Of a stretch of 64,000 bases of DNA, positions 6,297 through 38,264 are shown piece after piece. Positions within the stretch are counted from its first letter, which is position 1; each line of letters opens with the position of its first letter. A program made the position numbers and the translations under genes. The stretch spans positions 40,238,019 to 40,302,018 of the forward strand of contig CM049306.1 in the NCBI GenBank assembly GCA_026874595.1, written 5' to 3'. Origin of the DNA: Sipunculus nudus (lineage: Eukaryota > Annelida > Sipuncula > Golfingiida > Sipunculidae). The notes under the pieces were generated by a model. The model searched no databases. It had not been told where the DNA came from and saw nothing but the letters and a program-made list of their open reading frames with translations.

Positions 6297-9200
6297 GTAA
6301 GTACCGGTCAAAATTGATCATTTTGATACATTTTTCATGTTAAAACCGAAAGAATTACAGAGGACAAGCGTAAATTCAAAGACAAAGTAGTGGAATGAGG
6401 TCTTATAGGACCATCCCTATTGTCTTGTAAGCGGAGTCGTACTGTATTTAATTATAACTGATTTATGCCACACAGTGGGATATGGTGTGCGATCGAAAGT
6501 GGATGAAAACCATGATTCCTTTTGTATTCGTGCTAGCCTGGATGATCAGCGGATACACCATTGGATATTTTTCAGACAGGTAAAACAGTTAAGGTCCGTA
6601 CCGGTATCAATGTCCGTGTCCGCATATTTTTTTTTCTGTTTTACAATAAAGTATAAATATTAGGCCAAAATAAAAAAGGTATGGTTCTCAGGCACTTTTT
6701 TTCAGAAATCAATGCGGGCGGGATCATTTTTTATTTTAATTTTTTTTTGCCTGTTTCGATAAAAATGTCAAATGATAAGGGAAAAGCATGAAAATAATAG
6801 TTTTATTTTGCTAAATAAGTAAAAGCACTACAAAACAAAGGAAATTGTATGGTTTTATCTTCTTGAAAGAAATGTCGAAGCGGCAGCAGCTCAAAATTGT
6901 AAAGTTCTAATTGAAAATCAAAATCAAAATTTTTGATGCGGGGGTTTAAAATTGATGCGGGCGGTGCCTGAGAACCATACCTTTTATTTATTTTTTTGGA
7001 CTTACTGGTCCACAGGTTACAGGAGGGAATCCTCCGACTGGCTGTGTGAGCAATAATGTTTTACTTTGTACTGAAATATCAACATGAACATCCAATATCA
7101 ACGTGACGATTAAGTATACACCTTTGAGACTGTTCGCCAATTCGGTGTTCATTATACATCCACGTGGTAAATTAAATTATCGAAAAATATTAATATATCA
7201 TTCTATATTGCTGTACGCGTGGAAATAAAATAACAGCTTACTCAAAAATTAAAACCCGAAAACAGTTCTGAATCTTCCTTATTTTTAATATAGATGGGGC
7301 CGCCGTTTAATGCTTAGGATACTGGTTGTGGCGACGGCAGTGTTTGGCATGAGCGGACCTTTCGCCAGTCATTACGTAGCTTTCCTGGTGCTACGGTTCC
7401 TCTTGTCGGCTTGTATGAACCCGGCCTCCGGTATTTGCTTCGCTTTCTGTAAGTACATTTTTTAAGATATTTAGTCTTCTGCTTTCCTCGAGTATCTGAA
7501 CAAGACAAAAGAAAACTGATATGGTCGTATAAATGATCATTCGGATAACGAAGCATCACATGCATTAAAGAAAACAAAATATCATATATATTTTTATCTT
7601 GATTAATGAACATATAGACACTAATCCGAACATAAGGGCTCAAGTGTATATTGATTGGTGTGTAAATGCCCTTACTCGTCGGAATTCAAGGTAATATATG
7701 AGGACCATTTATATTCGACTATTAGAAGGTGTGCACAGTGTGACAGCTTAAAGTAGGCTCCCTGACAAAAATCCCTTCATTTAAAATAAATCCAAATAAT
7801 TTACAATTTCGTCATGGTTCGTTTTTTATATAACTTCTTTCCTGTACACATTAACTATTGTTTCAAATTTTTTTTTATATTCAGTTTTAAACACGGAAGT
7901 AATTTAATTGAAATCTAAAGTTATGATTATTGCTTCTCAACCAGAATTTCATCCATGTTGAAGTATCCGTTCATTATATTGAAAGGTAATTTTTTATATC
8001 GTCTGTACAAATTGAATTATTTTCGTAATATTTGACATACGATAAACAGATTATGATGAGAATGTATGTATCATTACTTGGTTCAATATGGAAAAAATGA
8101 CCATATGAACACACCACTACTCTGCGTCGGGTTTGTTGACTGAAATCATTTTATTATTGCTGGTGGGATATGAAGGCCTTAAGGTGGTTGGAGATAAGTG
8201 GCGCCCCCTGGTGACCAATCTGTACATGATCGGCTGGGCCATCGGGTACGCCTCCGTTGCTGGCATTGCCTACTTCCTGCGGGACAGATTTAACTTCATG
8301 ATAACTATATCAACGCTCATGTCCATTATGGTAATACCCGTCTGGTGAGTACCCTGACAGGGTTACAAGTAATACAGTTATGATTATCATTACACTCGGC
8401 GGATCCAAGATTTAGGAAAGGGGCAACCCAGGAGGATTAATGACAAGGCCTACATAAAAGTCTCCAGGTCCGGAAGGGGGGGGGGGGGGGGCACGGGCCG
8501 CAAAAAGTAGTCTGAAAACCTAAAATAAAATTGCGGGGGGCTGGAAAAGCCCCCCCCCCCCAACCCGCTTCTGTAGTTACAACTGACAATATAGTTACGA
8601 GTCCCATAACATGGTTACAAGTATCATTAAATAGTTACAAGTAGAATGACATAGTTATAAGCAACGTAACATAGTTACGAGTTTTAACATGACATAGTTA
8701 ACATAACATACCTTTAGGTAACATGACCTATTTACGAGTACCATAACATAGTTATAAGTAACATAACAAGGTTACAAGTACCATACAGTAGCATGTGTTT
8801 GAAAGAAAACAAGTTCTTTTACTCTTCTTCCTGAGGCCAAAAAAAATCTGTGGTTCTGATAACATGGCCAAAAAAAAAATTTAAGTTTTTTTTTATTGAC
8901 ACATTTTTGTAGTGTTTCAGGTTTTATCATGGGAATAGTGAACATATTAAATCTAGATTAGGATGCAATACATTTTTTCTACATGTTTATTTATAATAAT
9001 AATAATAATATAATAATGATAATAATGGCATGATACCGTATAAGGCATTTGGCGGGGAACCTTTCAGTTTTAAATTGTCTCTTTCCAAGACGCTTTATTC
9101 CGATTGGCTCTGTTGCTCTATATCAACGAGATTGGTCCTTATGAAAATGCCGTGTAAGGTTCTAAATACGAGACCCCTTTGGAATCGTATATGTAACCCT

Positions 9201-12200
9201 TTAAGCGATGTCAACATGTCAGCCTTTCCGTTTTTCTTTGGATGTTTCATGAAACTTCTGTTGTGGAACCAATGCAATGCTCAAACGCCCTACATATTTT
9301 CCCAAGAGCCTTAATATTTTCATGGAGAAGAAGTCGCATGTTCATATGAAACGTCCAACAGTCCTTTGCAACGGGATCTAGAAAGTAGAAAAAAGTGGGC
9401 CTTAATCGGAGTCCTTGCACGGTACCCGTCGATCAACGTCCGCCCACAACAAATTAATAAAGTTTGTAGTGTTTAAAGCACTGGGGGCTTACAAGGATTT
9501 TTTAAGGGGATAATTTTTCTTTAAAATATTGAGATAAGAAGGTGGTAATGTTGCCAGAAAGACCCAATTACTAACGAAGCCATGTGTTACGGAAGCTAAT
9601 ATAAACAGATCACGTATGCGTGATGAACTTAAATTTTGTAACGGAGATAAAAACAAATAAGATTCTGTAACACTAGGCAGCGTGAAACGCCTAGGATATG
9701 AATAAAGAAGTCAGTGGTTTTTTGTCAACAAATAACTATAATTTTTTCTTAAAACAACCGTAACAATAAAATACACTAAATCAATACAATTATACAGTAA
9801 TACAGCGGTATAGCAACAAGTCAATACAATCAAATAGAAAATAATGTGCACAGTACCAATACCATCACAACGATAAATCCTTTAAATGTAAACTCTCGGA
9901 GAATGACAGTCCGGTGGAAAGTTCTTGCAACAACCCAGAAAGTAAACTGAAGTCCAAATGCATAAAATCCAGGAGAAAGTCTTTGAAAATCTATAGTTGC
10001 CGCATTCGTCGGATAATGTCCTGACACACGCTTCTGCGTCCGCTGGAATCTTCTCTGCTCTCTCTGCCCCCGGCTCAAACACAGCCCCTTATATACTCTT
10101 CACCCCAAGCCGAGTATTTTCCACTTCTCGAACAGTCTATAAGATCTTGCACAACACAGTAAAACACGCGTTTCAGGAATTCTCTAGAAAGACATCGCCG
10201 TGACTCTACACACCATGGTGTACACGTGATCTCGCCCCAAGCCAGCACGATAACAAGAGTTCAACCAGTACGGACTAAACAGTCTATAAGATCTTGCACA
10301 ACACAGTAAAACACGCGTTTCAGGAATTCTCTAGAAAGACATCGCCGTGCCTCCACACACCATGGTCTACACGTGATCTCGCCCCAAGCCAGCACGACAG
10401 CAAGAGTTCAACCAGTACGGACTAAACATAGAATGTAACACGCGGCCAGACACGAGTGCCACAACAGGAACCACGCCCGTGTCACACAATAAAAGAGCAC
10501 CTGTAACATACGAAAGGACGTATTTTGATGTGTATATTTAGCACTTTTAGAGTTGTTTTGATATCTTTTACTATTTCACCATTACACGGCCTAATTGTAC
10601 AGGTGATTCCTACTACTATGATGGTATCACAGTTGGGGATTCCGCAACAAATTTTTATATGCCCATGTGTTATCGTTTCCTAACTCCCCGGTAGAAGGCG
10701 ACAAAACGGAACTAAAACTGGAACCTAAGCGGAACTTCAAACATAAATAAACTACTAATACTACTACTACTACGACTACTACTAATGCTTATAATGTTAA
10801 TAACAATAACGAAACTACTACTTGTATACTACTTCTAAAAATGGTAATAATATGTATAAGATTAATTTCATATAACAAAAATAATAGGGCTGGGTATCGG
10901 TCTGCCTAATCAGGTACAATACGTATTGCGATGCACTCAATTCGATACCCGATACGTATTGACGATACGCTCCAAATTTCTTTGTATATCATTTTCTGAA
11001 TAAAAGCTGAGGATAAAATTTTTCATCATTTTTTAATATACAGCATAACTATTATATTCTGCATTAATTCTGTACATTAAATACAGTAAAAGAAAAACTG
11101 AGTAAATTGTATATATCACTTCATTTCAAGCAGGCTAAAGCATATTAATAATAAAACTAAACCTAAAACCTCGGTGATCATTTCAAAGGATTAACCCAAT
11201 CTGGTAAATTTGATTCACTGCAGCTTGGAAAAAATACTCTTGTACTTTGTAATCAGCCGTCCTGTCTCTGAAAATTCCAGGTTTTTGCCGGAGTCTCTAA
11301 CATGGTTGATCGCAAAAGGTCGTCAGGAGGAGGCGAACAAAATCATTCGTCGAATGGCTCGAACAAATAAGAAGTCCATCCCTAATGGTCTGTCAGTAAC
11401 CGTAGAACAGGTAAAGTCTGTTGTAAAATTTAAAAAAAAATAATATTATTTTTCGTTCATTACCTCCGCTAAGGAGGCTATGTTCTCCCCCTTGTCTGTG
11501 TCTGCGTGTTTGTTTGTCTGGTAGGAGGGTCATTACAAAAACTGCTGCACCGTTTTCTAAGAAATTTTGTCGATGGGTAGGACATGGTCAAGGGAAGTGG
11601 CAATTAAAATTTAGTGTGGGCAATGTATTATTATTATTTTTTGGGGTTTTTTTGCCTTGATGGTGTTACATGCACTGTGTTAAGTGGCATTCTAGTTTTA
11701 TAAGCTCAGTTGACTGAGGCATAGGAATGGCGCTTCTTTAGTCGACCGTCCGTTAGTAAGGCACAGATCTTAACCGTTGCCCCTAGGAATTTCTAAGTGA
11801 GGACCAAGGGAGGTCAATTTAAATCTCTATGGAAAATGATATGTCATTACGACCTATGTCCTCCGAGCTATGAGGCTGGTAAATACCCCCAGAATAATAA
11901 AAAATGATCCAAAACTGGTGTTGCAAACTGATTTTTTCTATTTTCATGCATTTTTCCTTTAATTAGGGACCGCGAAATCATATTGACACTATCATATTCT
12001 CAACTGTGATTTCAACCGATGCCCATATACATTGTGTGTGTATAATATCCACCCAAACCCCCTCATCCAAGGTTAGACATTGTGTAAACTACATCCATAT
12101 GCCCAGATATTTCAATTTAGGCTTTATCAATTGTTCTTGAAATTAGGTTTCCAGAAAAACTGTAATAACTTTTTCTTGTACGGAAGACTAGTGACGCCAC

Positions 12201-13096
12201 CTATGATCTTTTTAGGTGTTTTGCCGTTTAATACATTTATCTCTTCTGCTTAAGAGTAGCGTGAGATGATAACTAAAAAAAATTATCTGCAGATTCCTTT
12301 TATATTGTGTACATTATATAAATAAATGAAGCCTTTTCAAAATAGGGTCCATTGACCTTCAATTATTTGAGAGATAAAATCCATATTTGGTGTAAAAAAA
12401 AAGGATGAAACATTAAATTTCCAAAGAATGGATGGTTGAATTGTAACGTAAATAAGAATGGTGTATATTCAAAGATAGTAAGTTCTCTGATGTTAAGGCT
12501 GCAAGGTGAAGACTCAAGGTGACCGGACCAACATTTTGAAAAAGCATAAAGATATCCTTTTTCAAAATGTAAAGATATCCTTATAGACAAAGTCACCTGA
12601 GCGTCGAAACCCTGGGTCCCTAGTATGTGTTCTCGAGTGCAGCAGGAAGGCCAGGATGGAGATCAGTGTCGTTTTGATCAATATTAAACTAGAGTAATTC
12701 TATTATATTTAAAAAGCGTTGGTGGAATATATAAAGCATAAAAAAAGAATGAAGCTGACAAATTCCAAATAAATCTGGCAATGAAGCACTCGGCTTGTGG
12801 ATAAAGTGAGAGGAAAATAGCCAGGGTGAAAACAATAAAGACTGACTTTTAGTATTATTTTTGAGACGCTGTGTATATATAAAGCAGATGTCATTATTTT
12901 GATAATAACACGTTATTTCAAAATTGGCATATCATCATAAATACTGTAGTATAAAACTTTTTAATTTAAATATCAGACTGGCACGGGCTATCTTTGTCTT
13001 AATGATTACACATGATGAAATAACGAAATGTTAGACAAATAATAAGGGTTAACCTATGTGGCCGCAGAATATCCATTTCCCTCTGATTAATAATAT

Positions 13097-13135
<39 letters not shown>

Positions 13136-16100
13136 CAAACAGACAGAGAGACGTAATCTACAGATGTAATAATTCAACATAAAAAACAGGATCACACTAC
13201 AGTTCGGACTCATGTCCCCTTGACCTGTGGTGGCTTGGTTTATTTCTGAACCAGACACAGCATTGGTTACCCAACAGCATTGCATATTTTCTCATTTCTT
13301 GGATATAATTACGTTTGGAAAAAAAAATCAGTTTGAAACTGAAATTCTAACGGCGTCGCAAGGGTTCACGGGGGGGGGGGGGGGGGGGGGAGAAACGGGG
13401 CTCCATCGGGGCTTTAGGGTACAGCATATCCGCTGGCCAGGGAGTGCATATATATATATATATATTTATATATATTTAAATATGGGAAGATGGCCCCCGG
13501 CAGCACCTCCTAAATACCTCCCTAAACTCAAATACTGACTCTTATGTGTTTTCTATGTCACTTGATTACTTCTGTTCAAGGTTGAGAAGAAAACGAAAAC
13601 AAAGTGGTTAGATTTAGTGAGGACTCCAGGAATGAGGAAAATGAGTCTGCTGTTGTGGCTGAACTGGTGAGAAAGCAAAAACCTTGAATATGTTTTAAAA
13701 TATATGCATCATCAATTCGTGTGCAGAAACTTGATGTCAATATTAATCTGAACCTGAGTTACGCCATACGTGATTAATTATACTTATATGCAGTAATACT
13801 GATCTAGTAGTTATCAATAATTCCATAAGTGATTATTTCTTCAAGCAATGCTTTATGCTAAAACCAGTGCATGTGTCCTAGAAAGACAACAGACAGCTTT
13901 TTGTTTACAATGAATAATCCCAGTGACTTCAGGTTTAGCTTGATATGGAAAACCAGCCAATAACAGAATTCGTGTGCGACTTCATAGTAAACAAGGAGAT
14001 TCAATTAGATGGAGTAAGCAATGGGATCACGAATCGCGTCCGATATTGCTTGCGATCTTGATAAGAAACCTAGCATCGATATGTGTGAAATCTATTTGAT
14101 CTGACTACTGGCAGATGCCTATTTTGCGCTATGGTTATCACTGATACATCGAAGATGGTATCGCAGAATCGCTTAGCAAGGAATCTGTCATATCAGTCCC
14201 GATACGTGAAAGGTTAGATGTTAAGCGTTACATATACGCTCGACTTCCTGGCGGGCATGGAATTCGGGGACTTTCCGGCGATCCACAAATTCGGCCGGAG
14301 TCCGTTGGATATGTGACACAGGTTTAAGGATTCGGTCGCCGGTTACTGCGAATATATGTCTTTTTATTAGATAATGCAAATTTATTGAATCTCCTTGATG
14401 TAATATACGAAATGAGCACCAGATCCTCTATAATGTTGGCATGTGGTAGATTAAGGCATCAGTTCCACCTTAAACATTTTCTGTGATATCTTGAAATGGG
14501 AAACCGGGATTAGATATTCAGGCCCTCCCATCAAGTTATTCCTTTTGTTTATACGTTACCCTGGCCTATGAAAGCCTATTACTTTTCTCGTTACAAATGA
14601 AATAAAATATTTGTTTGGCAAGATACCGAAACTTTGAAATTAAGTAGCCCGGAGTTGCATGACGCGCGCCTCATATCCTGTAATTATGATGTAACTACAC
14701 GTACATTAACTCTAGTCTGGTGACTGAGGTGAAAAATGTGTCTCCCATTCAGAAGAACGAAAGTGAAGGATTCAAATGTCACTGCCACTGTCAGTGCCAA
14801 ATGGTTTCTTTGTTAGCCGTGAGCAGTAGAGTAAATTCGCCACTCAGTCTATATATGAAAAAGTCTCATTTAATCATATCAGCGCCCATGGAGAAATTTG
14901 ATACATGCTGTTTTTTTATGTCAAAGACTGCATAAATATGATAAAAGCTTCGGTGTCGAAAGATGTATTTGTATATTTTATTGAAATTCAGGATTGCAAA
15001 TGGACTGTTATACTACGTTATCTCGTGGAACGCCTCTAATTTCCATGGTGACCTGTACCTGAACGTGTTTTTGTCGGGACTGGTGGAGATCCCAGCATAC
15101 CTATTGAATATTCCCCTTGTGTCAAAAGTTGGCAGGCGCTGGGGCATGGCTGGCTGTACATACGTGGCTGGCATCACGCTACTCCTTTCCTTAGCCGTCC
15201 CTGACTGCAAGTATCCATATAATTTTAGGCTTTGAGCGTGGTCCATAAAATGTGTTATTCCGCTTGAAAGTTTGCCGCAAACATGTGCCCTTACCACTGA
15301 TTTACGAAACTCGCTGTAAAATGATTCTCGCCTGCACACTGTCCTATTTTATGTCGCACCCCTGCTCCTTTTTTTAATCCAGATAGGTTTGGTTGTCCAG
15401 TCTCTCGAAACCGCGAATGAGGCTGCTGTTTTACATACACTTTATCCCGGATGCCACAGGTCGCATGTCGAAATTATTGGTAGACCACTAGTACCATGTA
15501 ATCTCCTTGCTAGTACATGTACTAATAAAGATGATACTCTGTGGGGCTGGGAGAGGAACAATGGTTGCAGAGTTATATCTGTCCATTACTGCACAAGGCT
15601 GTTTCTTTAAAGGACCCCTTTAAATATCATTAACAAGATCATATGTACAAGACCTTTAAACAAGCGAGAGGTAACAGTCTCCGGGGATGGGGGGGGGGGG
15701 GGGGGGGGGACACTCTGCATTCAATTCCAAGGTGATGCAGGGAAGAAAGACCTTGCCAGAGTAAGTACTTATGCCATAGGGGTCCATGGTTGGGTTCCCG
15801 CTTCATACAACCTAATGATAAAAATAATGAAAGCTCACCAGAACCTCACAGATTCACCCTATTACCGTGACCCGAAGCTGATCCACAGGGGGAGCGGTCC
15901 AGGACGTCCGGACACCCCTTTGCAGCAGCCACAACCTTTTTTGAAAGGTTTCAGATCATATTTTGCGACCTGGACCCCCCTTTTCCGGACCCGGGGACCT
16001 TTTTCAGGATAAGTTATTAGTCCTCCTGGGTTGGACTCCTCCTTTTCTAAATTGTGGATCCGCCTCTGTTGTCTGCAGTCAACGCTTCTACTTATTTTTT

Positions 16101-18637
16101 ATTGCCAGCCTTTTGTATGTAAACGTTTGAAAGGCAGATGGCGAGATAATGTGGCTTTTATCGTATAGTAAACTTAATGCACCTGCTATGATGAATTGGC
16201 GAGTATTGTAATAGCTTGTTTTTCCATTTAGTTCCTTTCAGTCCATACAAAACCGTATGCTTAATAAATAGATTACACAAATAAAGTAAATAAGCGAAAA
16301 TACGTGAAAATAATCGGACACAGATATTTGATATGTGTGAAAATACACATTGCTGCTAAAACTGTTGTACGTAAAATTCATTGAAGGTATTTATGCAAGA
16401 TCTTTGGTAACCTACAGCTGTACCTGCCGGTAAGGTAACACTGGTGATGATCGCTAAGTTCGGGATCACCATGTCATTCACGATCGCCTATCAGTATTCG
16501 GCGGAGCTTTACCCGACCGTCACCAGGACACACGGTCTGCTGGCGAGTATCACTGCCGCACGATTTGGAAACATCGTCTCACCTTTCTTACCTCTCTTGG
16601 TAGGTATGATAACGATAATAATAATTTAAATAAAAATAATTATAATAATAATGTTAAAAATAATGAAAAAATAAGGATCAGAATAAGGAGAATAATAAAA
16701 ATAATAATAGTAATAATAAAATTGATATATAAATAATAATATAATACTATAATAATAATAATAATTACTGTTGCCAGTAATATCTTCACGGAATATACGA
16801 ATAACCAAATGCCAAAATAAATATGTGGCACGAATCACATGAGTAAATTTAACATAAGCAATACTCTTAAGCTTTTTTTTAAAAAACACACACAGATACA
16901 GTTAGCCGTACAACATTTGAGTAACAAATCTGGATTAAAACACGGCATGACATCAGATGATCTGGATATTTCTCAGCTACGTCCCCTTTTCGTATGCAGA
17001 AACACGAGCAACATGTTACAAATGTTACCATTAACGGGCTGCACTAGGCAGACATTCAGCTGGCTAGCCTACATTACACTCTTAGCCCGACACTTCAAAT
17101 ATCCCCTTAACTAACTAGTTTTTAATTAGTTTTGATTTAAAGAATTAAATGTCCCCATATTCGTAGGTGATTTCTCATGAGTTACTAAATTAATCAGAAC
17201 AGAGCGTTTGTTGTAAAAAAAAACGAAAAAAAAACATGCATTGCGTGCCTTTCAATCAATACAAAACCAAACCCAAAAGCACATATCTAATATATATAAA
17301 TTTGAATTTTCTTAAAATGGTGATCCATGATATGAAGACTATAACTTATTATTTTATGCATAAATTCATTCTTAATAATTACAGACATTTTACGAATTCC
17401 AGGCAGTGAAATCCGAATTAGATTATATTCATTTTTCCCAAATTAATTGACAGCTTTTCTTTCGTCTGATACGTTTGGTTTATCCTCGAGGTTGTACTAT
17501 AAATCTCTGTATTTGGAAGGGCGGTGTGTGGCAGGAAGTAATTTGCGGGACGTTTGCCCTGGCGACAGGCTCTCTGCTTCTTCTGTTACCGGAGACAATA
17601 CACGCCACGCTGCCTGCGACCGTGGAGGAAACAGAAAGACGTATACGAAACTATAAACTAAGGTACGGCGCCACACTCCTCACGCAGCGGTTATACACAG
17701 CAGTCAACCTGGTCTCCTTCGTTTTAACCGATGCCTTACTTTGCAAGTGTTGCGGGTTTTCTACACCAGGGATGGCACAAGGTCAATAATTGTTATCAGA
17801 CCGATGAGCGCGTATTATCGCATTGTGCACTTACCAATGAGAGGAACTTGGAACTTGGAGCTGGATGCACCATGCGATGCCACACTCTCATTGTTCTGAT
17901 TGACAGGTTTTTGCCCTGTGCCAGCCCTGGCGGTGAAACCCAGAGAACCTTGTCAAATGCGAAGGAGATATAAAACGACTGCAGTGTATAACCGATGAGT
18001 GATGAAACACCGCAAGCTTAAGTCTTGTTACTTAAATGTGCGGTTTAATCACTTGCTCACACAGACACACACACACACACACACATATCGTGCATTTTAA
18101 TGGTAACACACAAAGTTTTTTTAAAATAAATCAAATGGGATTAAATATTATCAAATGCAAATGTAAACGCAATCAAAATGATATTGATGAAATATACATT
18201 TTTTACAAATAAATTTGCACTCCGAAGAACTCCAATGTATCACATTATTTCATAATATATGTGTTTATTGTAAGAATTATAAAAGATATCCCTGAATGCA
18301 TAAATATAATTAATATGGTCCTGCTTCGATATGTTCTCAATATAAGTTTACTGTGTTTAAATAAGAAATGCCTATGGTTCTCCAGGTAAATGTGTACATG
18401 CCCATTGAAAAGAAAGGTTTAATATTTTGTTTCATTTTAGTAATAAGAGACGACGTTTCATTTCCAGTAATAAAAGACGTCTCTTTCAGGCATCTTTGCA
18501 AATGTTCATTATCAACCAAAGAACTCCCTGAGTCTGCAGAATATCGCGAGAAGGAAGTGTTTATTAACCCTACAAAAACACAAGCTGGAAATTCAAAAGG
18601 TGACGCAAGTCCTGAAAAAGAAATAAGTAGATTTTAA
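5877..18637 (+). CDS. SLC22-family organic ion transporter, complete ten-exon gene
   Basis: This is a predicted plasma-membrane transporter of the SLC22 branch of the major facilitator superfamily, which moves organic cations, anions or zwitterions; the substrate cannot be told from sequence. The exons are 5877-6296, 6476-6579, 7294-7448, 8176-8344, 11281-11410, 13581-13666, 14992-15206, 16418-16599, 17520-17662 and 18490-18637. The joined length is 1752 nt, or 583 aa plus stop, close to the usual 540-600 aa. Diagnostic family motifs appear in order: ATPGHWC before the large first extracellular loop, VTEWDMVCDRKW (about 138-149), DRWGRR (174-179), PESLTW (286-291), VGRRWG in exon 7, AELYPT (455-460) and LPET (510-513), followed by a hydrophilic tail. 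All phases agree if intron 7 uses a GC donor. The acceptor of exon 4 is the weakest call. A 5'-truncated tandem copy lies at 21504-30976. Family assignment is firm; the member is not resolved. Confidence 0.93.
6476..6579 (+). CDS. SLC22-like exon 2 (EWDMVC motif, TM2)
   Basis: The acceptor is cacag|TGG and the donor AG|gtaaaa, phase 2. It encodes WDMVCDRKW followed by hydrophobic TM2 and ends in YFSD, the start of the cytoplasmic MFS loop. Arg175 is split across the junction with exon 3. Confidence 0.92.
6662..7000. mobile_element. MITE, family with GGTATGGTTCTCAGGCAC inverted ends (copy 1)
   Basis: The left end ggtatggttctcaggcac (from 6678) is matched exactly in reverse by gtgcctgagaaccatacc (ending 6982); outside this the A-rich flank and aggccaaaa are also roughly inverted. 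It lies in intron 2 of SLC22 and shares interior sequence with the copy at 53352-53663. Non-coding. Confidence 0.82.
7294..7448 (+). CDS. SLC22-like exon 3 (DRWGRR loop, TM3-TM4)
   Basis: The acceptor is aatatag|ATGG and the donor TTCT|gtaagt. Joining to exon 2 restores D-R-W-G-R-R, the conserved MFS loop 2-3 signature, followed by two membrane segments ending in PASGICFAF. The left breakpoint of the tandem duplication falls inside this exon near base 7350: only sequence downstream of that point recurs at 21504. Confidence 0.92.
8176..8344 (+). CDS. SLC22-like exon 4 (VGDKWR motif, TM5-TM6)
   Basis: It encodes LKVVGDKWRPLV followed by two hydrophobic segments (IGWAIGYASVAGIAYF and FMITISTLMSIMVIPVW). 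The donor is TG|gtgagt, phase 2. The only AG in roughly 60 bases upstream is the one ending at 8175, which joins in frame to exon 3 but leaves the loop about three residues shorter than usual for the family. The true 5' boundary is therefore less certain than the others. Confidence 0.8.
8398..8560. mobile_element. Fragment of the same hAT-like family
   Basis: Ggcggatccaagatttaggaaag matches the reverse complement of the family right end. A tccgga segment and poly-G follow. Truncated; in intron 4 of SLC22. Confidence 0.55.
8573..8790. repeat. ~20-bp minisatellite (catagttacaagtaacata), unit-1 copy
   Basis: About ten degenerate units lie in intron 4 of SLC22. The paralogous site at 21738-22505 carries the same motif in a much longer array. 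Confidence 0.82.
9585..10508 (-). mobile_element. Solo LTR (copy B), inverted, with internal duplication
   Basis: This is the reverse complement of the copy A family: TGTTACGG at 9585 is the LTR 3' end and CTGTAACA at 10501-10508 its 5' end. It lies inside intron 4 of the SLC22-like gene. It is longer than copy A mainly because a 148-bp segment is duplicated in tandem (10133 and 10281). No matching target duplication is visible (catg against tacg). Confidence 0.82.
10133..10428. repeat. 148-bp tandem duplication inside LTR copy B
   Basis: The segment beginning cagtctataagatc recurs exactly 148 bases later, and the two units are nearly identical, differing at only a few bases, so the duplication is young relative to the LTR. 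Confidence 0.85.
11281..11410 (+). CDS. SLC22-like exon 5 (PESLTWL, cytoplasmic loop)
   Basis: The acceptor is ttccag|G and the donor CAG|gtaaag. TG from exon 4 plus G gives Trp283, then FLPESLTWLIAKGRQEEA, matching the family PESPRWL...GR..EA segment that opens the large intracellular loop. A long polar helix follows. Confidence 0.92.
11411..13580. other. SLC22 intron 5, mostly unassigned
   Basis: It contains a diverged palindrome-core fragment near 12190, an (AG)n run at 13099, a poly-G run near 13371 and (TA)n near 13447. No coding sequence recognised. Confidence 0.6.
13099..13134. repeat. (AG)n microsatellite
   Basis: A pure AG run in intron 5 of SLC22. Confidence 0.95.
13581..13666 (+). 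CDS. SLC22-like exon 6 (DLVRTPGMRK)
   Basis: The acceptor is ttcaag|GTT (phase 0) and the donor TG|gtgaga (phase 2). It encodes VEKKTKTKWLDLVRTPGMRK and the start of TM7 (MSLLLWLN), matching the family DLFRTPxLR motif that precedes TM7. Confidence 0.9.
14992..15206 (+). CDS. SLC22-like exon 7 (TM7-TM9, VGRRWG), GC splice donor
   Basis: The acceptor is attcag|G. It encodes WIANGLLYYVISW, a membrane pair, the second MFS signature SKVGRRWGM and another membrane segment ending in LAVPD. The donor must be GC: CCTGACT|gcaagt gives phase 1 and joins to exon 8 as AVPDS-VPAGKV. Using the nearby GT (CAA|gtatcc) would give phase 2 and an immediate in-frame stop in exon 8. Confidence 0.9.
15886..16068. 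mobile_element. hAT-like MITE relative (same family as 39486-39722)
   Basis: It starts CAGGGGGAGCGG, ends GTGGATCCGCCTCTG, and shares the interior segments gaaaggtttcagat and cctccttttctaaat with the 39.5-kb copy. It lies in intron 7 of SLC22. No clear target duplication. Confidence 0.62.
16418..16599 (+). CDS. SLC22-like exon 8 (TM10-TM11, AELYPT)
   Basis: The acceptor is cctacag|CT, preceded in frame by a TAA, so the start is well bounded. It encodes VPAGKVTLVMIAKFG, then AYQYSAELYPTVTRTHG and a final membrane segment, the most conserved part of SLC22 proteins. The donor is TTG|gtaggt, phase 0. No copy of this exon is visible in the duplicated pseudogene. Confidence 0.92.
16612..16770. repeat. 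AAT-rich simple repeat
   Basis: Degenerate (AAT)n immediately after exon 8 of SLC22; long apparent reading frames here are only a product of low complexity. Confidence 0.85.
17520..17662 (+). CDS. SLC22-like exon 9 (TM12, LPET motif)
   Basis: It encodes GGVWQEVICGTFALATG, a hydrophobic TM12 and LPET, then ATVEETERRI, matching the LPETxxxxLPxTIEEAE end of SLC22 proteins. The acceptor is ggaag|GGC; a second in-frame AG at 17533-17534 (ggcag|GAA) is an alternative. The donor is AG|gtacgg, phase 2. Confidence 0.85.
18490..18637 (+). CDS. SLC22-like exon 10 (cytoplasmic tail and stop)
   Basis: The acceptor is ctctttcag|G, a strong pyrimidine tract. It encodes a 48-residue hydrophilic tail containing KELPESAEYREKEVF and ends at TAA 18635-18637. 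The same exon recurs as a decayed copy at 30843-30976, which supports that this tail is a genuine exon of the ancestral gene. Confidence 0.85.
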
Positions 18638-19830: not shown

Positions 19831-19839
19831 ATGCTACCT

Positions 19840-21234: not shown

Positions 21235-21282
<48 letters not shown>

Positions 21283-21597: not shown

Positions 21598-21737
21598 GTA
21601 TGTACAAACTCAAAAATATAATCTTTCACTGTCCTCTTTTATCTTCACAGGTCAAAAGAAAACTTGTATGGTGGTATAAAGAATCATTCGGATAATTAAG
21701 CATTAAATAACAAATGTGGAAATAGTATGTCCTATAT

Positions 21738-25099: not shown

Positions 25100-26150
25100 C
25101 GACAAGCGACTACAAGTATCCACTCAATCACATGGATATGTCGATGGATATATGGTGGCATGGATAAAGTGAGACATAAAATCCTTCCCGATGTGACAAC
25201 CCTCCATATTCGTTTTATCAGAGATGCCCAAGTATCTCAAGATGCACGAATCAATGAAACTAACAATCATAATGTAGGTGGCACCACCATTGATGTGATG
25301 GAGATAATGATAATGCCATCCTAGATCTATGGACATGAAAAACATAAGGCTGATACGTGTGCACTCCTCAGATAAATGCATAAATGTGTTTAACGAATAC
25401 CGTCTTCAGTATGAGGCAGCTATCCACTAAACTTTCAGGCCGCTTCACTGAACATCTCCTGAGAATTGTGCGATTTTCATCAAAACAGACATACAGATGG
25501 ACACCAGATAAAACTTATTAGAGATGGCGCCACCATTCTTGTATACAAGAAAAAAAATCGTAGGTCAATGGACATGCAAAGTTTTAGGCTGAAACATTAA
25601 AACACTCCTCAGATAAATGCTTGAATGTATCCTACAAATACGTTATTGTAGGTAGAACCACCAGTCTTGTGTACGAGAAATCTAATCAAGAAGGATCTAC
25701 ATGCACAGTTTAAGTCCGATACGCCAAACCACTGCTGAGACGTGTGATATTCACCAAAAATAGATTTACAGATGAACATCACGCAAAAACGATTGTAGGT
25801 TGCACCAGCAGTCTTGTGTACAAGATGAAGTTATTCAAGATGCATGCACAATTTTCAGGCTGATACAATAACCCACACCTGATATATGAGAGATATTCAC
25901 CCAAAGATTGACACACACCACGCGAAAACGATTGCAGGTGGCGCCACCAGTCTTGAGTACGAGAGAGAGGTACCCAAAATATATGGACATGAACAATTTC
26001 AGCTCAATACATTGAAGCGCTCCTTCGACAAGGACTATTATCACTAAAAAATCGCACAGATGGACACTTTGCAAAAAGAATTGCAGATGGCCACACCAAT
26101 CTTTGTTAGGCACCAGTTCACTTGTAAAAAAGTCCTCATAATTCGTGGTC
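25100..26150. repeat. Degenerate ~140-bp tandem array with the same palindromic core
   Basis: Core-like motifs occur near 25265, 25525, 25650, 25797, 25936 and 26086, spaced about 127-150 bases apart after the first gap, each followed by text like cagtcttgtgtacaag. It lies in the SLC22 pseudogene where the copy of exon 8 would be expected. Confidence 0.7.
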
Positions 26151-28278: not shown

Positions 28279-28423
28279 GGCGATATGTGGCAGTAAGTGA
28301 TATTCGGGACGTTTGCCCATGGGGCAGGCTCTCTCCTTCTCCTGTTACCTAGGAGAACATAAACGCCACGATACCTGCGAACATAGATGAAACAGAAAGA
28401 CGAATACGACACTATAAACTCAT
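28279..28423 (+). pseudogene. Copy of SLC22 exon 9, stop after five codons
   Basis: It is about 82% identical by eye to 17520-17662. The acceptor side is ggtag|GGC and the frame reads GDMWQ then TAA. The LPET region and ETERR region are still visible at the DNA level. Confidence 0.88.
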
Positions 28424-28489
28424 GTACGCCGCCAGCACCCTGATTATCACCCACTCACTTTACTTCGCGAACCGACCAGGATGTTAAAG

Positions 28490-29530
28490 AACGGATATGG
28501 ATGTCAGCAGAAACCCTGAGAAATTTACTTCAGATGTCATGGCATGAATGCTAATCGATCGAATAAAAATTTACGACACCAAAACTGAATTTCTGTTAGT
28601 TGGAACAAACCAACAAATACCAACAGTAAACGTCAGTGAAATAAAAGCAGGTGGTTAGGCTAGTTCATAAAATAAGGAATCTGTGCGTTATCTTTGATTC
28701 AAAAATGTTAATATTGGATCATGTTAACCATGTGAGCAAGATAGGTTACTATCAGATGACTAAAATTAGACAGGAAAAGAAGTATCTGCATGGACAAATC
28801 AGCAGTTGAAGCACTTATTCACTCTCTTGTAAGCTCAATTATTGACTATTGTAATTCTTCACTGTATGGCTGCCCAAAGTATGTGATTAGTAAAATGCAA
28901 AAGTTACAGGACTGTGCAGTCAGATCGGTATGTGGAGCCCAGTGATTTGATCATGTAACTCCTTTGATGAAGAGCTTCACTGGCTTCCGGTTTCCTCTTG
29001 TTTAATATATAAAATAGCTATTTTGGTATTTAAGTGCCTGCATGGCCAGGCACCTGAGTATTTTTCGTGTTTAATTGAGAAGAATAATCTAAGCCGTGCT
29101 CAACGTTATCTGCCTGTGGATCCCAAGACAAGGACAAACATATTGGGGTCAAGGGCCTTCACCAGTGCTGCACCAGCCGTTTTGAATAAACCGCCGGAAC
29201 ACATCAAATGCCAAGACAGTATTAATGCATTCAAAGTCTTATAAAAACATATTTTTTTTTCAGAACTGCTTATCATCTGTTATATATTCACCGATCACAC
29301 AAAAGGTTATTGCTGTCATTTTATTTGCAATTTAGTTTTAGTCTCTTTAGTCATTCTTTTATTCTGGTCATGATCTTATTATATTCTGTTTAAATTTAAT
29401 AACATTTGTTTTAGGATCTTGTAAATTGGTCTCATAGTGAATGTATTATTTGAATTTTAGTCGTTACAGCACAACTGAGTATTACACATGTTGTTCATGT
29501 TTTTGTGGCGCTTTATAAATTTAATAAACT
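28490..29530 (+). mobile_element. 5'-truncated LINE retrotransposon, 3' end of the reverse-transcriptase ORF
   Basis: Broken frames read KTEFLLVGTNQQ, DHVNHVSK, IIDYCNSSLYG and, at 29023-29244, FKCLHGQAPEYFSCLIEKNN followed by AFTSAAPAVLNKPPEHIK and INAFKVLKKHIF. This is the characteristic C-terminal region after the reverse-transcriptase domain of CR1/L2-type LINEs. Stops and frameshifts interrupt it, and no fingers/palm core (YADD) is present, so it is a dead 3' fragment. It ends with a short A/T-rich tail near 29530 (ttataaatttaataaac). It inserted within the intron between the exon 9 and exon 10 copies of the SLC22 pseudogene. Confidence 0.85.
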
Positions 29531-30842
29531 ATAAACTATACCAAACTGAGTCCTATGGGCCTCTGAATTACTTGTTCACACACACAGACACAAATGCGGA
29601 TGAACGTACTCGTCAAGACATAGTTTTCAAACCACACTTCTGGGGAAACGGTGAGGAGGTTGAGCCACTGGTTGAAAAACAGATAATGACGCATGTATCA
29701 TCCCACACCTTTAGCTATATTAAATGGCCGGTAAGGTAAGAGAACAATGCATTGACATAGCGCAAAACTTGCACTCTCCTGTCATATACCTTCATGTAAA
29801 AGCGAGGAAAATCATTAAAAAAAAAACAATTAAAAAATTGTAAGACATGTTCCTTTTTCTGTATTGTTATCCCAGGAATTGCCATCACACAAGGAATAAA
29901 TTAAGCCAATAAGGAATTTTCTTTCCATTAATAAGTTAAATGCAAGTGGATATTATACTGAGAATGTATATTTTTCTTCTGTATGTTCCTTTGAAGTATA
30001 ACACATGCATGCAATATTTACCTACGTCTCAGCATAAATCAATTACTTTAGATGTTTACAATTATAACATATAAGAACTAAATGCCGCCCTTTTTAATAT
30101 AAAATTGCTTCCATGCACACTTTCTAACGATTTTGCGCAGCCCTTAGTAGAGAACGCTGGCACACACAAATACCAGAATCAATTGCAAGCCATATGATTG
30201 TTATGATTGGTTTTCTCAGGTTTTATATGCTTTAACAGATTTACGAGGACCAGTCCTCTTAGGTAAAAAAGGTCAACGAGCGTTTGGTGTGCAGTCAATA
30301 CCATGTTCTTGCATATACGATTATACACACAGTCACACACACACACACCATTTCCTACACACACACCATGCATTTTAATGGAACTACATTCAAATGTTTC
30401 AAATAAATCAAGTAGCATTAAAAATGATCATATGCAAATGTGAATTTAGTATAAATGCTATTTATAAAGAAAACTTTTCTTACGAATGGATTTGCACATC
30501 CAAGAACTCCGTTTTGTTCCCTTATATCAAGAAACATGTGTTTATTGTAATGATCAGCACAGTCTTATTTCAACTGAGCTGCCAAGGCCAGTCATTTGTA
30601 GAATAAATAATTGAAAAATCAGCGATTTGCAGAAATCACTGAATGCACGAATAGTACCGATATTTATATGGTTTTACTTAAATAAGTAATTAGGATAGTA
30701 AATGTTTACTGCATGTGTATAGTTGTATGTAGAATGCCTAATATTGCCTGTGTCAGTCTATATATGCCAGCAGAATAGACAGACGTATAATTATATATTA
30801 TATATTATGTTTCATTTCCGGTAATAAGATATGTCTTTTCAG

Positions 30843-30976
30843 GGATCTTTGCAAATGTTCCTCTTCAACCATAGCATTCAGAATATAAAGAAACGGAAGT
30901 GTTCATTAACCCTTCAAAAACACTAGCTGGGGATTCAAACGCCGATACAAATCCTGAAAATGATATTGGATTTTAA
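30843..30976 (+). pseudogene. Copy of SLC22 exon 10
   Basis: It is preceded by a strong tcttttcag acceptor. It starts with codons for DLCKC as in the intact exon, then an internal deletion puts TAA in frame. The original terminal TTTTAA is kept at 30972-30976. Confidence 0.85.
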
Positions 30977-31269
30977 AGAGACATATGAAATCTTTGATAG
31001 CAACGAAAGATGAAAGGGGCCTATTCCGATATCTGACGTGTATCAAATAATATCTCAAACCTTTTAATAAATTAAATAAAAATTGCGCCGATCCCACGAT
31101 GCACAGGTCCTCCGTTTTGTTAATATTGTTTTTATATCAACGTGTTTTTAACATATGGGGGAGGATAAATAAACACGTTATCCAAACAGGCAAAGCAAGG
31201 ACTTCTAGCGGCAAATCTGACAAACTATACAGTCTGTTCCAGCACCCTTGTCAATCTGTTTTTCGCGAT

Positions 31270-31384
31270 TGTTTTTTTATTTACTAAAAATGTTACATCT
31301 AAACCTTGCTTTGAATTACAAAATAACTTTTTTTTCTATTAAAATTAAATATTTGAAATATGATTAAGTATATATTTATATATA

Positions 31385-31451
<67 letters not shown>

Positions 31452-31560
31452 GAATATGTCGCTCAGAGACGCTGAAAAAGGTATATGTGTGTGTATAAAT
31501 ATTCAAAGTCATCCCACCCCCCCCCCCCCCCCCACCCTGGAAGAAAAATTGACGCCACTG
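31270..31560. mobile_element. Fragment of the GACGCC hAT-like family (second copy)
   Basis: It shares tgttacatctaaaccttgct, the cgctcagagacgctgaaaaa segment, a long (TA)n and the terminal ATTGACGCCACTG with 20866-21334. The left inverted end is not visible. Confidence 0.7.
31375..31448. repeat. (TA)n microsatellite
   Basis: A nearly pure TA run inside the second GACGCC-family fragment. Confidence 0.95.
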
Positions 31561-32524
31561 AGTATGTATCCACATACCACACATGTTACATATAAATGAA
31601 GTATAGTTTTTGTCTCCATAAAATGACACATGCCAGTATAACTTTCCAAAACCGCTCGCATACCTACGGACATAGCTGGAAAAACTTGTATCCGGGCGTG
31701 ATCAAACCTAAATTTAGCACACACCACCTGGTTACTTAACCGCGCACATCAAGATTTTAAAAGCTTTAAACTGATGTTTCCTCTCTCTCTGTTTCCCCTT
31801 TCGTGATTCTTCTCCTAGTTTGGAATTTATCACTCATTTTTAAGATCGGAACTCTGGTCATGCTATCTTGTAATGATAAACAAACACACGTCGACGGGAA
31901 TTACTCACACACAGAACCATAACAACGTAGCAATCGGGTCACTTGAAAAAGATAGTTCATGAAATCGGATGGCTTTCTTTGGGAAAGTGTTGTATTCAAC
32001 CAAAATGAACCAATAGTGGGAAATAATACACATATTATTGCAAATGTTTATGTACCTTCAAATTAATTAAAGAAAACTGAAATATTAAATAAATGTTAAA
32101 ATAATGATTCAATTGCGTAGTAATTATTTCTATTTGTAATACAGCCAGTTTATACAATAAATGTCTTATATTTAACAGTACTATTACTTAAATGCAAGTC
32201 CAATCTCAAATTTAAAAAAAATAACAACTCGTCATTTAAAAGTTGCCTCTTTATATGTACAAATTCATTGATGGTTCGAGAAAGGTGTTTTTACGCTCAA
32301 GTTGATGTACAGAGCACAGCAGTCTAAGTCTGTTCAATCGATTTTGGCATGCATTCCTTATTTTAAAAAAATATTTTTGTTTAATGAGCCTTCTACATTT
32401 CATATATGAAAATTAGATGCGCAGAGCATATTCTAAATTTGTGGTGGAAAATGTAATCAGAAAATGATATTTATATATTGCAAATGAAATATATATATAA
32501 TAAACAGATCTACAGAAACTGTTT

Positions 32525-32827
32525 CCATTTATGAGTTTACTATGAAAGATTATATCTAAATCTATTTTAGAATTAACTTGTACATAACTTGTGCATGTCT
32601 TATTTTCTTAAACCCTTATACGTAATTGTTTTATATTTGAAATGTGATTAAGTATATTTGTATGAAATGTGTAATATAAACAGACACTGGAATGTTTATA
32701 TATGTATATATAATATATTTTGAAAGATATATATATATATATATATATTTATATAAATATATATATGTGTGTGTGCGCGCGAGTCATCCCCCCCCCCCCC
32801 CAATGGAAGAAAAAATTGACGCCACTG
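32525..32827. mobile_element. Fragment of the GACGCC hAT-like family (third copy)
   Basis: It ends ATTGACGCCACTG at 32827 after poly-C and (TA)n, with a diverged tatatctaaatct interior. The left end is missing or too diverged to see. Confidence 0.62.
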
Positions 32828-34334
32828 ACGGCAAACATTTACAATCTTCCAAAACTTCCCTCTGGATCCAATGGTGTTAGCGTCATATCGACCCTCTGGC
32901 ATTACGACCAGATTACTGGCGCCGGCTTGTCTTTACATCTTAGTCTGAGGAACGCATTATGAGACCTTAAGAAGATACAAATATATTCGTCATTTCCGAC
33001 AAAGCTTCATGGCCTACAGGTACACTGTCAATCAACATAAACCAGACCAATCGTTAGCATTTTTGTATACTTTCTAATAATACCAAACATGAGCGAGAAA
33101 AGTTCCGTTTTTTAATCCAGCACATTGGTAAACCCCCTCGGCATGTTTGTTGAATTTATGACCGAATGAACACAAGCTTGACTCGCACGAGTTACAGGAC
33201 ACAGGCAGCTTGCAGGCGATCCGTGTGACCCGTGTCCATGGGGACGGTTTTTCAGTTTTGGTTGTGAGCTCACATATATACTATTGTGTTAATTAATCAG
33301 TCTTAGCATAATATTGAGATTATGGGCCGTTTACCACAATATGAATGTAACCTGAAGCAAGACCACTGCGATACATTCCTCAACATTACTTGTATCACGA
33401 CTCGAGTAGGCTTAACAGCCCAATTATCCGATTGCCTACTGAGTCGGGTTGTCACGGCTACAATGATGTGTGCTTATATATCATACCTGCACCTTAGCTA
33501 AAATACCTAAAAGGAACATGTTCCTGTTTGTAACAACATGATTATGATTTTGATTTTGAGCATGATCTTTATTATGATACAATTAATCATTTTAGTAAAC
33601 AGGCCGAAAAACTAAGTTTGCCTATCAATTCATACGAACTTTTACACGTGTGGGACCTGGGAATTTAATGACTCTATTGCAGCAAACGCATGCACTAATT
33701 ATAATGTAATTTTTCAATTTTATGTAACTTGTAATCAAGTGTTCGCTTTCCGGCATTTGTAAACATTTATACGAAAAATACAAGGTTAGGGCCTAAGGAT
33801 TAATGACGTATAGTATATGGTGCATAGTATATAATGCTGGTATATCGGTAGCTTGGCGAAGAGGTTATGTCTAGTTCTTCATGCTGCCTTACAAAAGCAA
33901 TTCTTTCATATTTTAACCGAGTCTGGGTAATTCTAGCGAGTGTAGAGTCCATATCATTATTCTAGTAGAAAGATACATTATTGATTACTATACGGCTTTA
34001 AGCCAGTGCTAGTCATATAATAAATGGTCTGTTATAAAGATAACACTTCCTTTATTCAGCTATACATAGTATAAAATTTCAAATAAATACCTCCTTTCAT
34101 GCCGAGCAGATCATTCATCACAGCTAGCACTCCATCAAGTAACATTTACACATATGAATCAGTAGACAAATGCCAATCTCTTCAGTGCTACCATGGAATG
34201 ATTACTTGAGTCTGGGTTGGGTAATGCGTATCGAGCACTTAATTTGAAACTTTGGTATCCGTTTTATCCCTATAAGTCGGGTCGTTGAAGACAAGTTTTT
34301 AGGTGTACATGGAAAAACATGGTAGAAAACAGCT

Positions 34335-36827
34335 CTTGGTGTCATTCGATGCTCCCAAGTTTGTAAAATGGCATATCCAATATCCGCTAAAATCCGCTTT
34401 TGGGAGACTTTGTTAGAACGATTTTAAATTTATATATTTTAAATAAACAATTACATAAATGGTACCTTATAACGTGATATTAGAAGCCAAGTTTTCATAT
34501 TAATGCACATAAAGCAAGTCATAGTCACGAAGAGATGAGTACTTGAATGATCAACTTAAAAAACTGGTTATCAGGATTTCTTTTTTTCATTTCAGTTTCA
34601 ATTAAAAAATATGAAAATACATTCATATTCGAAATTGATTGGGTAGTTTCGTATTAAAGCCAGTGAAACATTCACTGTACATAATATTGTCCCGTTAGAA
34701 GCATATTCCTATTCTACTTCTGTGTTTTAATATTTTAAAGTATATTTAATTGAATTTAAATTTTAATTTTTTTAAATATAGGTATATTATTTATTAAAAG
34801 TATCATAGCAATTCCCTTATTTCGTGAAATAAGTGGCCCAATTTTTTACATTAAGGCACATAAAGGATGTCAGAAGCAGTTTTATAATCGTCTTTATTGA
34901 AAGGCACTATTTACATAGTCTTATAAACTTATTTTTAAATTTTAATTTTATATGAAAATATATTCATATTAAAGAATATTAGGGCGTTTCAAAGCCAGCA
35001 GAACAACCACTTTTCATTATTTTTGTCTGCTGGAAGCATTTACAATTTTCAATTTCTATGCTTGAATCTATAAATTTAAAATCTAATTTTATTAAAATTT
35101 TAAAATATGTTCAGAGTTGGAAAAATATAATCAAGGGGGATATTTCCACATGATTGCAAAGAAAATATAATAGAAATTGAAATTTTTATTCTCATCATTT
35201 TTAAACTTTTATTTTCTATTGAATTACCTTTCATGGTTAATTAGGTAGTTGAATTGGACAAATATTACGTGAAGGGGATAACCAATTGATAGTTGGCAAT
35301 ATGTTACCTATCAGGTATATTCTTATAGATGAGAAATATTCTATCAGATGGTGGATCCCCCGGTGTTGATTTTCTTAGATAAAATTGTAGATTTATTGGA
35401 AAATTTAAGATTATTTTTCGAGAAAAAAAAAATCTGTATAACAAACTACGATTACAGCTTGAATCAGAAATATAGACATTGTGGACAAATTCAGTAAATT
35501 AGACAGTTTTCAACGTTTGCCACATATTAATGGTTATATGACACTTTGAAATATCTGCGGAGTTTTTAAAATTAGAAAATATTTTAAATATCTAACTGCA
35601 TTACTCTATGATAAATTGATAATAGCATCAATAAATCAAATTTTCACAGAACCAGGGTTAATAATTCATAATTACCTAAAATACCATGGAATCAGAAAAT
35701 ATGAAAATACAAATTATAGTAATACGAATAGGCAGAAAAATTCAAATTTTTTTAGGGCAATGTTTTGTCAGTTATTGAAAATAAAAACCTCAATATATAA
35801 GCGGATTCAGAGGCAAGACCCCCTCTTTTTCGACATGAGGAAACATGTAAATGTAATAATATACTTAGTACCGAAAAGCAGCTGTTACACCAGATCATTC
35901 GTATGTTGCCGTTTTCTTCCATATGCGTCTGTATTAGAGAGATATGTATTCAGAAGACTTTAATACCAATACTCCATGAACTTGTTGACCTATACTAGGG
36001 TGTTAAGGCTCACCCTTTTCAACTGCTTTAAACAAATTCTCCAAACAATTATACATATATAACCAACACCGCCATGATGACCACGACTACCCGTCCCACC
36101 ACACGAATTCACTCACAGTTATATATTAAATATATCAGAAGGTGAAACCTCAAGATTAATACAAAGGAATTGGAATAATTTTGATAGAATAAAAGAAAAA
36201 AAGAAACTACAAACTGGTACACAACTTATGTTTGCTATTCTCTGATCAAAATGTCTGCAATAATGAGCAAGGTATTTTTTTGTAAAACCTAAAATGTATT
36301 GGTTTAATCAGAAAAACTTTGGTCGTCAGTCAATGTAATTTGATTTGAAAATGCCTGCAGGGTCTCACTAAAAAAACGAATATTTTAAATATATCGATAT
36401 TTGAAAATTATATTTAGATTAGATTTACCTTAAAAGTTTAAAACCAGAAGCCCATTGCTTCTAATGGGACCACATTATGAACAGTAGCTGTTTTACTGGC
36501 TTAACACCAAACGCCTAGTCATCATTGAATATGAATGTATTTTCATATTTTTTTAATATTTAAATTAAATATCAATCGAAAAATAAAGTCCTGAAGACCA
36601 ATCAAGTGGAGTCGGTAAGCCAAGTTCATTTCTCTCAGTGACCATGACTTGCTTTATGAGCATTAATGTGAAAACTGGGCTTCTAATATTACGTAATTAG
36701 ATACAGTTTATGTTATTTTTTTTAAATATTAAAATTAAAAACCGTTTTAAAAATTTCCCCACAGCGGATTAAGGCGGACTTTCGGAAATTTTATTCTACA
36801 AAGGCGGGAGCATCGAATGATACCAAG
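34335..36827. mobile_element. Foldback-like element with ~390-bp inverted arms
   Basis: The left arm (34335 to about 34730) and right arm (about 36440 to 36827) are inverted copies. Examples are the CTTGGTGTCATTCGATGCTC end against its reverse complement near 36802-36827, and the GTCATAGTCAC segment near 34530 against GTGACCATGAC near 36640. A further direct copy of arm sequence lies around 34850-35070, so the arm itself is internally repeated. Sequence on both sides aligns to unit 1 around 20040-20080 without it, so it inserted in unit 2 only. A 115-codon ORF in the centre is not recognisable. Confidence 0.72.
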
Positions 36828-37286
36828 ACACTCGTAAATCACGCGGGAACCGCATGAACGGAGTGGCGTCTTAAAAAAAGGTTACAAAAAAATGTTGACA
36901 GACCAATAAAATAACTTGATAACATTATCATTAAAATAGCCATCCGACTAGATACAATGTGTAGTAAGGTCCTTATTTTCTGTCTGTTTGACGATCAACA
37001 CATCAACTCCAAAAAAATGGTATAGAATGAAATATCATAAACTATAGATAATACACATATTTAACATTATATTTATAGTGTTATAAAAAATCTGACCTTT
37101 TATATGGTCCACCATCTGTGTACAGATCATTCTTCACTATGTGTGGACAATTCACTGAGTGAACAAATCTATCTTGAAACAATATTTGAAATAGCTATTG
37201 ATATATTTGGTTGGGTGCTTTGTGATAACTCCAGATCGTTTTGTTCTGGCATATCGTTAGTTTCCTCAAGGAATCAAACTATTTGT

Positions 37287-38264
37287 CTAATTTGTCTGAT
37301 TCATCTGTGGAGTAACAGAGACCTTTTCAAATATACAAGGACAGCAACTTCTAAACAGATCGAATGCCGAGTGCCGAAAGACCTTATTAGTTCCCATGTA
37401 TATAATAGGATTCCAGAAGCTATTACTTAATGCCATCACGTGGATCAATATTTCCAGCCATATAGGAAGGTGTTTAAGTGATCCGAGGGTAGCTTTGAAG
37501 ATATGTTCCACGATAAAAGGTAACCATGCTATGTAGAAAGCCAGAACGATTATCAGCAATGTCATGACGGCTTTCCGGTTCCGCTTAAACCCCTCATTGG
37601 CTAGGTTGTTCGCGCCGACGGTGTCAGATATTTGCTGGGAATGCCGATGGCTTATCCGCCAGATTTTAAAATAAATCACAGTTATAAACGATGAAGAGGG
37701 GACGAATATCACTGCATTATATATTATCCACTGAGTAGGGTATTTAGCTACATCGAAGTAACACGCTACTTCGTTTATGCTGAATTGATACCCTCCATAT
37801 CCAAATAATGGGATCACCCAAAGCACAGTACTCAAACCCCACACGGAGCAAACCATAATAGCGCAGCGTTTGTTAGTGAATATGTCATTGCACTGTAATG
37901 GGTACGCGATAGATATATAACGGTCGAGACTTAAAGCAACCAATGTTAACACTGAAACTACCCAAGTGACGGAGTTCATAAATCCGACTGAATCGCACAC
38001 ACGCGGGTCAAGCTGGTCTGAAAATGTGTAATGTATTAAGGGTATCGCTGTTGTCAAGCCGACTCCTATGTCTGCAACCGCCAAAGATACCATCAAGTAC
38101 CCAGTGACATTCTGTAGTCTTTGTGTGCGAACGATAATCCCAATTGTGATACAGTTCCCGCTGATTATGAATACAGTTATGATACTGAGAATGCAGAACA
38201 CTGCGGCATTGTATTCCATCTGCAGGTTCCCACCCATGGTTAGGCGAATGTAACAATTCAACAA
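37287..38264 (-). CDS. Class A (rhodopsin-like) G-protein-coupled receptor, single exon
   Basis: This is a predicted plasma-membrane 7TM receptor of 325 aa signalling through G proteins; the ligand is unknown. Visible landmarks: GN in TM1 (36-37), LAVAD in TM2 (61-65), Cys90 at the top of TM3 paired with Cys168 in extracellular loop 2, DRY (114-116), a short basic third intracellular loop (about 205-232), WLPF in TM6 (247-250), NPIIY in TM7 (285-289) and CCPC (307-310), a likely palmitoylation site. The overall pattern, with HRHSQQIS after TM5 and ALSNSFWNPIIY, recalls GPR21/GPR52-type or amine-like orphan receptors, but this is memory-based. The start could be Met1 (38264) or Met10 (38237), the latter giving a more typical short N-terminus. 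It reads open throughout with no intron. A truncated copy lies at 20570-21503. Confidence 0.92.
   Translation of the reverse strand: MLNCYIRLTMGGNLQMEYNAAVFCILSIITVFIISGNCITIGIIVRTQRLQNVTGYLMVSLAVADIGVGLTTAIPLIHYTFSDQLDPRVCDSVGFMNSVTWVVSVLTLVALSLDRYISIAYPLQCNDIFTNKRCAIMVCSVWGLSTVLWVIPLFGYGGYQFSINEVACYFDVAKYPTQWIIYNAVIFVPSSSFITVIYFKIWRISHRHSQQISDTVGANNLANEGFKRNRKAVMTLLIIVLAFYIAWLPFIVEHIFKATLGSLKHLPIWLEILIHVMALSNSFWNPIIYMGTNKVFRHSAFDLFRSCCPCIFEKVSVTPQMNQTN

Follow-up and report, generated by a model that had tools for sequence, protein, structure and literature searches.

An old tandem duplication with breaks inside an SLC22-type transporter gene and a convergent GPCR gene in Sipunculus nudus

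Partial gene duplicates and the two genes of the locus

Unprocessed pseudogenes retain intron sequence and decay through frameshift, deletion and transposon insertion. The dead gene copies described here resemble them in both respects, with the difference that one event appears to have given dead copies of two unrelated genes, both truncated at the 5' side by the event itself. Partial tandem duplications are a second close parallel. In a Drosophila yakuba survey, genes or parts of genes were caught up in 1004 of 1116 tandem duplications; whole-gene duplications numbered 66 and chimeric genes 76 (PMC5460883). A review of yeast and C. elegans states that partial duplicates have a greater chance of being non-functional from birth, and also treats gene conversion between copies that differ in structure (PMC3449122). 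As in the events treated there (PMC5460883; PMC3449122), breaks inside genes gave truncated copies at the present locus. Unlike them, it has convergent genes, an arrangement in which no chimera can form and no sequence downstream of a duplicated 5' fragment can be recruited. The event is also old (coding divergence 16.6%) rather than a young polymorphism of the kind covered in the survey (PMC5460883). Fragment duplication is a common mutation class, and the locus is a clean case of it that needs no new system or mechanism.

The window analysed is a stretch of 64,000 nucleotides (assembly GCA_026874595.1, contig CM049306.1, positions 40,238,019 to 40,302,018 of the forward strand). On its plus strand lies an intact SLC22-type transporter gene (5877-18636; 10 exons, 583 aa, open frame over all exons). 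Its exons were placed by frame and splice sites at 5877-6296, 6476-6579, 7294-7448, 8176-8344 and 11281-11410 (exons 1-5) and at 13581-13666, 14992-15206, 16418-16599, 17520-17662 and 18490-18636 (exons 6-10), with AG acceptors and GT donors save one GC donor in intron 7. The best PDB matches, obtained with exons 2, 3 and 5-9 only as the query, were SLC22 structures (OCTN2, SLC22A3, OCT2 and OCT1; E 1.2e-43). The full protein matched Pfam Sugar_tr (1.5e-24) and MFS_1 (1.2e-22); when four single-exon frames were searched against Pfam, the one match was weak, to Sugar_tr, and under its curated cut-off. Judged by these similarities, the protein is predicted to belong to SLC22, being a major facilitator protein with SLC22 members as its nearest relatives of solved structure.

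The second intact gene, on the minus strand, is a single-exon GPCR open frame (37287-38282; 331 codons from stop to stop, with the first Met near 38237), so that the two genes are convergent. Pfam 7tm_1 matched it at full length (E 3.1e-44, profile positions 1-260 of 260), and the nearest solved structures are GPR21, GPR52, the beta-1 adrenergic receptor and adenosine A2A. We assigned it to class A as a predicted receptor, by the 7tm_1 domain across its full length.

Two collinear units and a single new joint

Comparison of the whole window with itself, together with a low-stringency comparison, paired 7355-21502 (unit 1, the left copy) with 21504-37776 (unit 2, the right copy) through 13 collinear blocks. 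In the low-stringency comparison (7000-21503 against 21504-38400, permissive settings) 13 of the 34 same-strand matches formed one ordered chain with a score of 2068. The cut at 21503/21504 was imposed in that comparison; the whole-window comparison, run with no imposed cut, gave identical ends for the broken diagonal, at 7355/21504 and 21502/37776. Of the chained blocks, one lies within a minisatellite (8591-8828) and another, at 13802-13848, is weak (E 0.002). The 21 same-strand matches off the chain comprised 18 in the minisatellite, 2 transposon-like matches and 1 TA-repeat match; the four minus-strand matches were 36-59 bp long, two of them in TA repeats. Unit 2 reversed but not complemented, used as a control, gave a single match with a score of 88, and the collinear chain is strong against this null. 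The units are thus adjacent, in direct orientation and in shared collinear order, as in a tandem duplication.

The initial annotation had predicted a single long broken diagonal at an offset of about 14-16 kb. The diagonal is present; block offsets between the units span 9.1 to 16.8 kb. The left edge, given there as 7350, moves to 7355 by alignment, or possibly to 7342-7345 should the GTTT shared at the join (see below) be genuine. The GPCR break, which had been put at residue ~164, falls near residue 150, counting from the LQMEYN query stretch. The annotation gave no strand for the GPCR; its minus-strand position makes the two genes convergent, and the truncated GPCR copy is for this reason the C-terminal half, with the extra copies of both genes cut at the 5' side. 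The diagonal ends lie in exon 3 of the intact SLC22-type gene and in the intact GPCR frame; the outer parts of both genes are single, with one whole copy per gene. The 13-block chain and the intact live frames confirm the central claim of the annotation, a tandem duplication with its breakpoints in two genes and one intact copy of each. Copies of SLC22 exons 1-2 or of GPCR TM1-4 elsewhere would have spoken against this claim; at E 0.01, exons 1-2 and the GPCR 5' half each matched only themselves within the window.

Several other repeats were noted. The minisatellite, with 20-bp units, occurs in both units, at 8591-8785 (9.9 copies) and at 21738-22499 (38.2 copies); it is about four times longer in unit 2, and its length therefore changed after the duplication. 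Two tandem arrays lie at 47699-48858 (328-bp units, 3.5 copies, 90%) and at 55930-59101 (units of ~337 bp, ~9.4 copies). A dispersed repeat pair at 728-1421 and 54781-55447 is 76% alike over a separation of 54 kb.

The dead SLC22 copy (21504-30975, plus strand) consists of matches to live exons 3 (part), 7, 9 and 10. Its piece of exon 3 (21504-21597) begins at live residue 196. Alignment to the live exons revealed a 76-bp deletion in exon 7 (24292-24430), a 2-bp insertion and one in-frame stop in exon 9 (28279-28423), and 11- and 3-bp deletions in exon 10 (30845-30975); exons 4, 5, 6 and 8 gave no match within unit 2 at E 0.01. A frame at 28951-29241, which we had taken to resemble the end of a LINE reverse transcriptase, gave no match in a Pfam search and was dropped as a candidate.

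The dead GPCR copy (20551-21502, minus strand) holds the C-terminal half only and matches 37296-37776 in two pieces split by an insert; one of them carries six small deletions, and the other has two 6-bp insertions. The insert (20866-21334, 469 bp), delimited by direct reading and a terminal pattern search, is presumably a hAT-type MITE. Its ends, CAGGGGCGTCAAT and ATTGACGCCACTG, form 13-bp inverted repeats with one mismatch, and its 8-bp flanks, GTGTCAGA and ATGTCAGA, are alike at 7 of 8 positions; terminal inverted repeats and an 8-bp target duplication are the hallmarks of such elements. Related short hAT-like elements lie at 31276-31560 and 32457-32840; both ends were found in the 20866-21334 element, and only one CAGTGGCGTCAAT end in each of the others.

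The single new joint leads from the end of one unit to the start of the next: the GPCR match extends as far as 21502 and the SLC22 match takes over at 21504, in agreement with the annotated passage of GPCR sequence into SLC22 exon 3 at 21503. When the junction (21495-21504) and its two parental arms were set side by side and read by eye, GTTT was present in all three. The join may have formed on this 4-bp overlap and then undergone a small deletion; insertion of a few filler bases is an equally likely alternative. We found no homology between the breakpoints that would serve non-allelic homologous recombination (NAHR): within 1.5 kb around each, the best of 11 matches spanned 61 bp at 67% (E 0.018), was in inverted orientation and did not lie at the breakpoints. 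An NAHR-mediated duplication was ruled out on this ground, and the lack of long homology makes a non-homologous join likely. A fusion gene at 21503/21504 was also ruled out, since the GPCR fragment is read from the minus strand and the SLC22 fragment from the plus.

The events may be pictured as follows. A single tandem duplication of ~14 kb would have run from a break in SLC22 exon 3 to a break in the middle of the neighbouring convergent GPCR gene, with the ends united either by end joining or by replication template switching, and perhaps sharing 3-4 bp. In the sequence, the new joint abuts the truncated ends of the two extra copies. As the genes are convergent, both extra copies lack their 5' halves, including the start codons and presumably the promoters, and no fusion frame arises since the truncated 5' ends face each other. 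Neutral decay by substitutions, deletions and a transposon insertion would then follow, as the substitution patterns suggest. We infer a single-copy ancestral order. One tandem duplication with one breakpoint per gene is supported as an account of the order, the orientation and the single junction in one event.

Divergence of the units and the time of death of the extra copies

Outside exon 7, 138 of 832 sites in the coding pieces differ (16.6%; JC distance 0.187). The aligned noncoding blocks differ at 556 of 2412 sites (JC distance 0.275), a lower bound that covers alignable blocks only with gaps excluded. Lower coding than noncoding divergence would follow from free drift in just one of the coding copies. 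Such divergence between units is far above allelic difference in most animals, and haplotype duplication was ruled out as excessively divergent. We regard the idea that the units are unmerged haplotypes or another assembly artefact as scarcely credible, given that each unit also carries distinct indels and each outer half is present once in the window.

Anatomy alone does not separate truncation at birth from a complete larger duplication followed by one deletion at the junction; the two look identical. In the latter case both whole genes would have been duplicated, and one later deletion would have taken the GPCR 5' half together with SLC22 exons 1-2, both of which adjoin the junction. This route requires two events. 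With one constrained and one free copy, a live-versus-dead dN/dS of about one half is expected. We compared live and dead coding pieces over 267 codons (non-overlapping pieces, exon 7 left out of the pool). The pooled dS was 0.319 and dN 0.151, and thus dN/dS was 0.47 (bootstrap 0.32-0.70). By piece, dN/dS was 0.16 for exon 3, 0.71 for exon 9 and 0.61 for exon 10 (0.45 for these three together) and 0.50 for the GPCR.

Simulations were run 400 times each, with the dN/dS of the live copy assumed to be 0.05, 0.1 or 0.2. The median dN/dS was 0.45-0.52 when the extra copy was neutral throughout and 0.04-0.17 when it was constrained throughout. When the copy had been free for one quarter of the time, the observed dN/dS was reached in 0, 0 and 1 of 400 runs (live copy at 0.05, 0.1 and 0.2, respectively); so short a freedom, or a shorter one, is rejected. 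Freedom for half of the time, which reached it in 1, 3 and 25 runs, is disfavoured. Freedom for three quarters, at 35, 58 and 117 runs, lies well within range and would suit a deletion that followed the duplication. Exon 3 taken alone (11 synonymous and 8 replacement changes, dN/dS 0.16, p 0.038 against the rest) is synonymous-rich, which runs opposite to the prediction of lasting neutrality and would suit some early constraint; the exon 3 test, like that of exon 7 below, was picked after the alignments had been seen. Some early constrained or functional period of the extra copies is possible.

Taken with the frameshifts, deletions, stop and MITE in the dead copies, the substitution pattern favours extra copies that were probably dead at or near birth. 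The initial annotation had inferred truncation and death at birth from the anatomy; the claim now gains support from a dN/dS close to that of the neutral simulations, with room for an early period of constraint. We consider it highly probable that one tandem duplication, from exon 3 of SLC22 to the middle of the GPCR gene, left 5'-truncated extra copies that have decayed neutrally since, and rather unlikely that two whole genes were duplicated and later cut back at the junction.

Exon 7 and the meaning of the duplication

One part of the dead SLC22 copy stands out. The live exon 7 (14992-15206, plus strand), a candidate gene-conversion tract, is unusually like its dead counterpart at 24292-24430: 8 of 139 sites differ here and 138 of 832 in the rest of the coding sequence compared (Fisher p 0.0005), which makes the exon 7 copies 94% alike and the other pieces 83%. 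A run of 52 identical sites within it was matched in 110 of 5000 shuffles, and its own dN/dS is 0.33 (4 synonymous and 4 replacement changes). This similarity is too high for independent decay at a common rate. The GC donor of intron 7 lies next to this exon. At position 15207 the live intron opens with GCAAGT, and the dead copy has GCAAGC at the equivalent site. GC donors are uncommon; as GC occurs in both copies, it is either older than the duplication or common to them through conversion.

Perhaps the simplest account of the likeness is a short gene conversion. Tentatively, and with somewhat less than even confidence, we suggest that the live SLC22 gene and the dead fragment exchanged sequence long after the duplication, by a short ectopic conversion of ~100-215 bp over exon 7. 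Two points call for caution: the candidate tract stops almost at the exon edges, and the test was post hoc. In the literature we located no report uniting gene conversion with a truncated tandem-duplicate solute carrier pseudogene, a result that carries little weight. The likeness of exon 7 would also suit retention of one or both truncated copies as functional pieces, for instance as a regulatory RNA or as a new gene with recruited 5' exons. The frameshifts, the stop and the lost exons speak against such a role, and dN/dS fits neutral decay in both fragments; we hold it to be very improbable.

With neutral decay of copies truncated at birth as the preferred reading, the locus would be a clear old example of a single tandem duplication that keeps two genes whole and adds two broken copies, the broken state of the extra copies being set mainly by the position of the breakpoints. 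Two unrelated genes with one birth date would provide two independent clocks, and the shared date allows a direct check of death at birth, by a dN/dS near one half. If the conversion over exon 7 is real, a gene truncated at birth kept recombining with its source.
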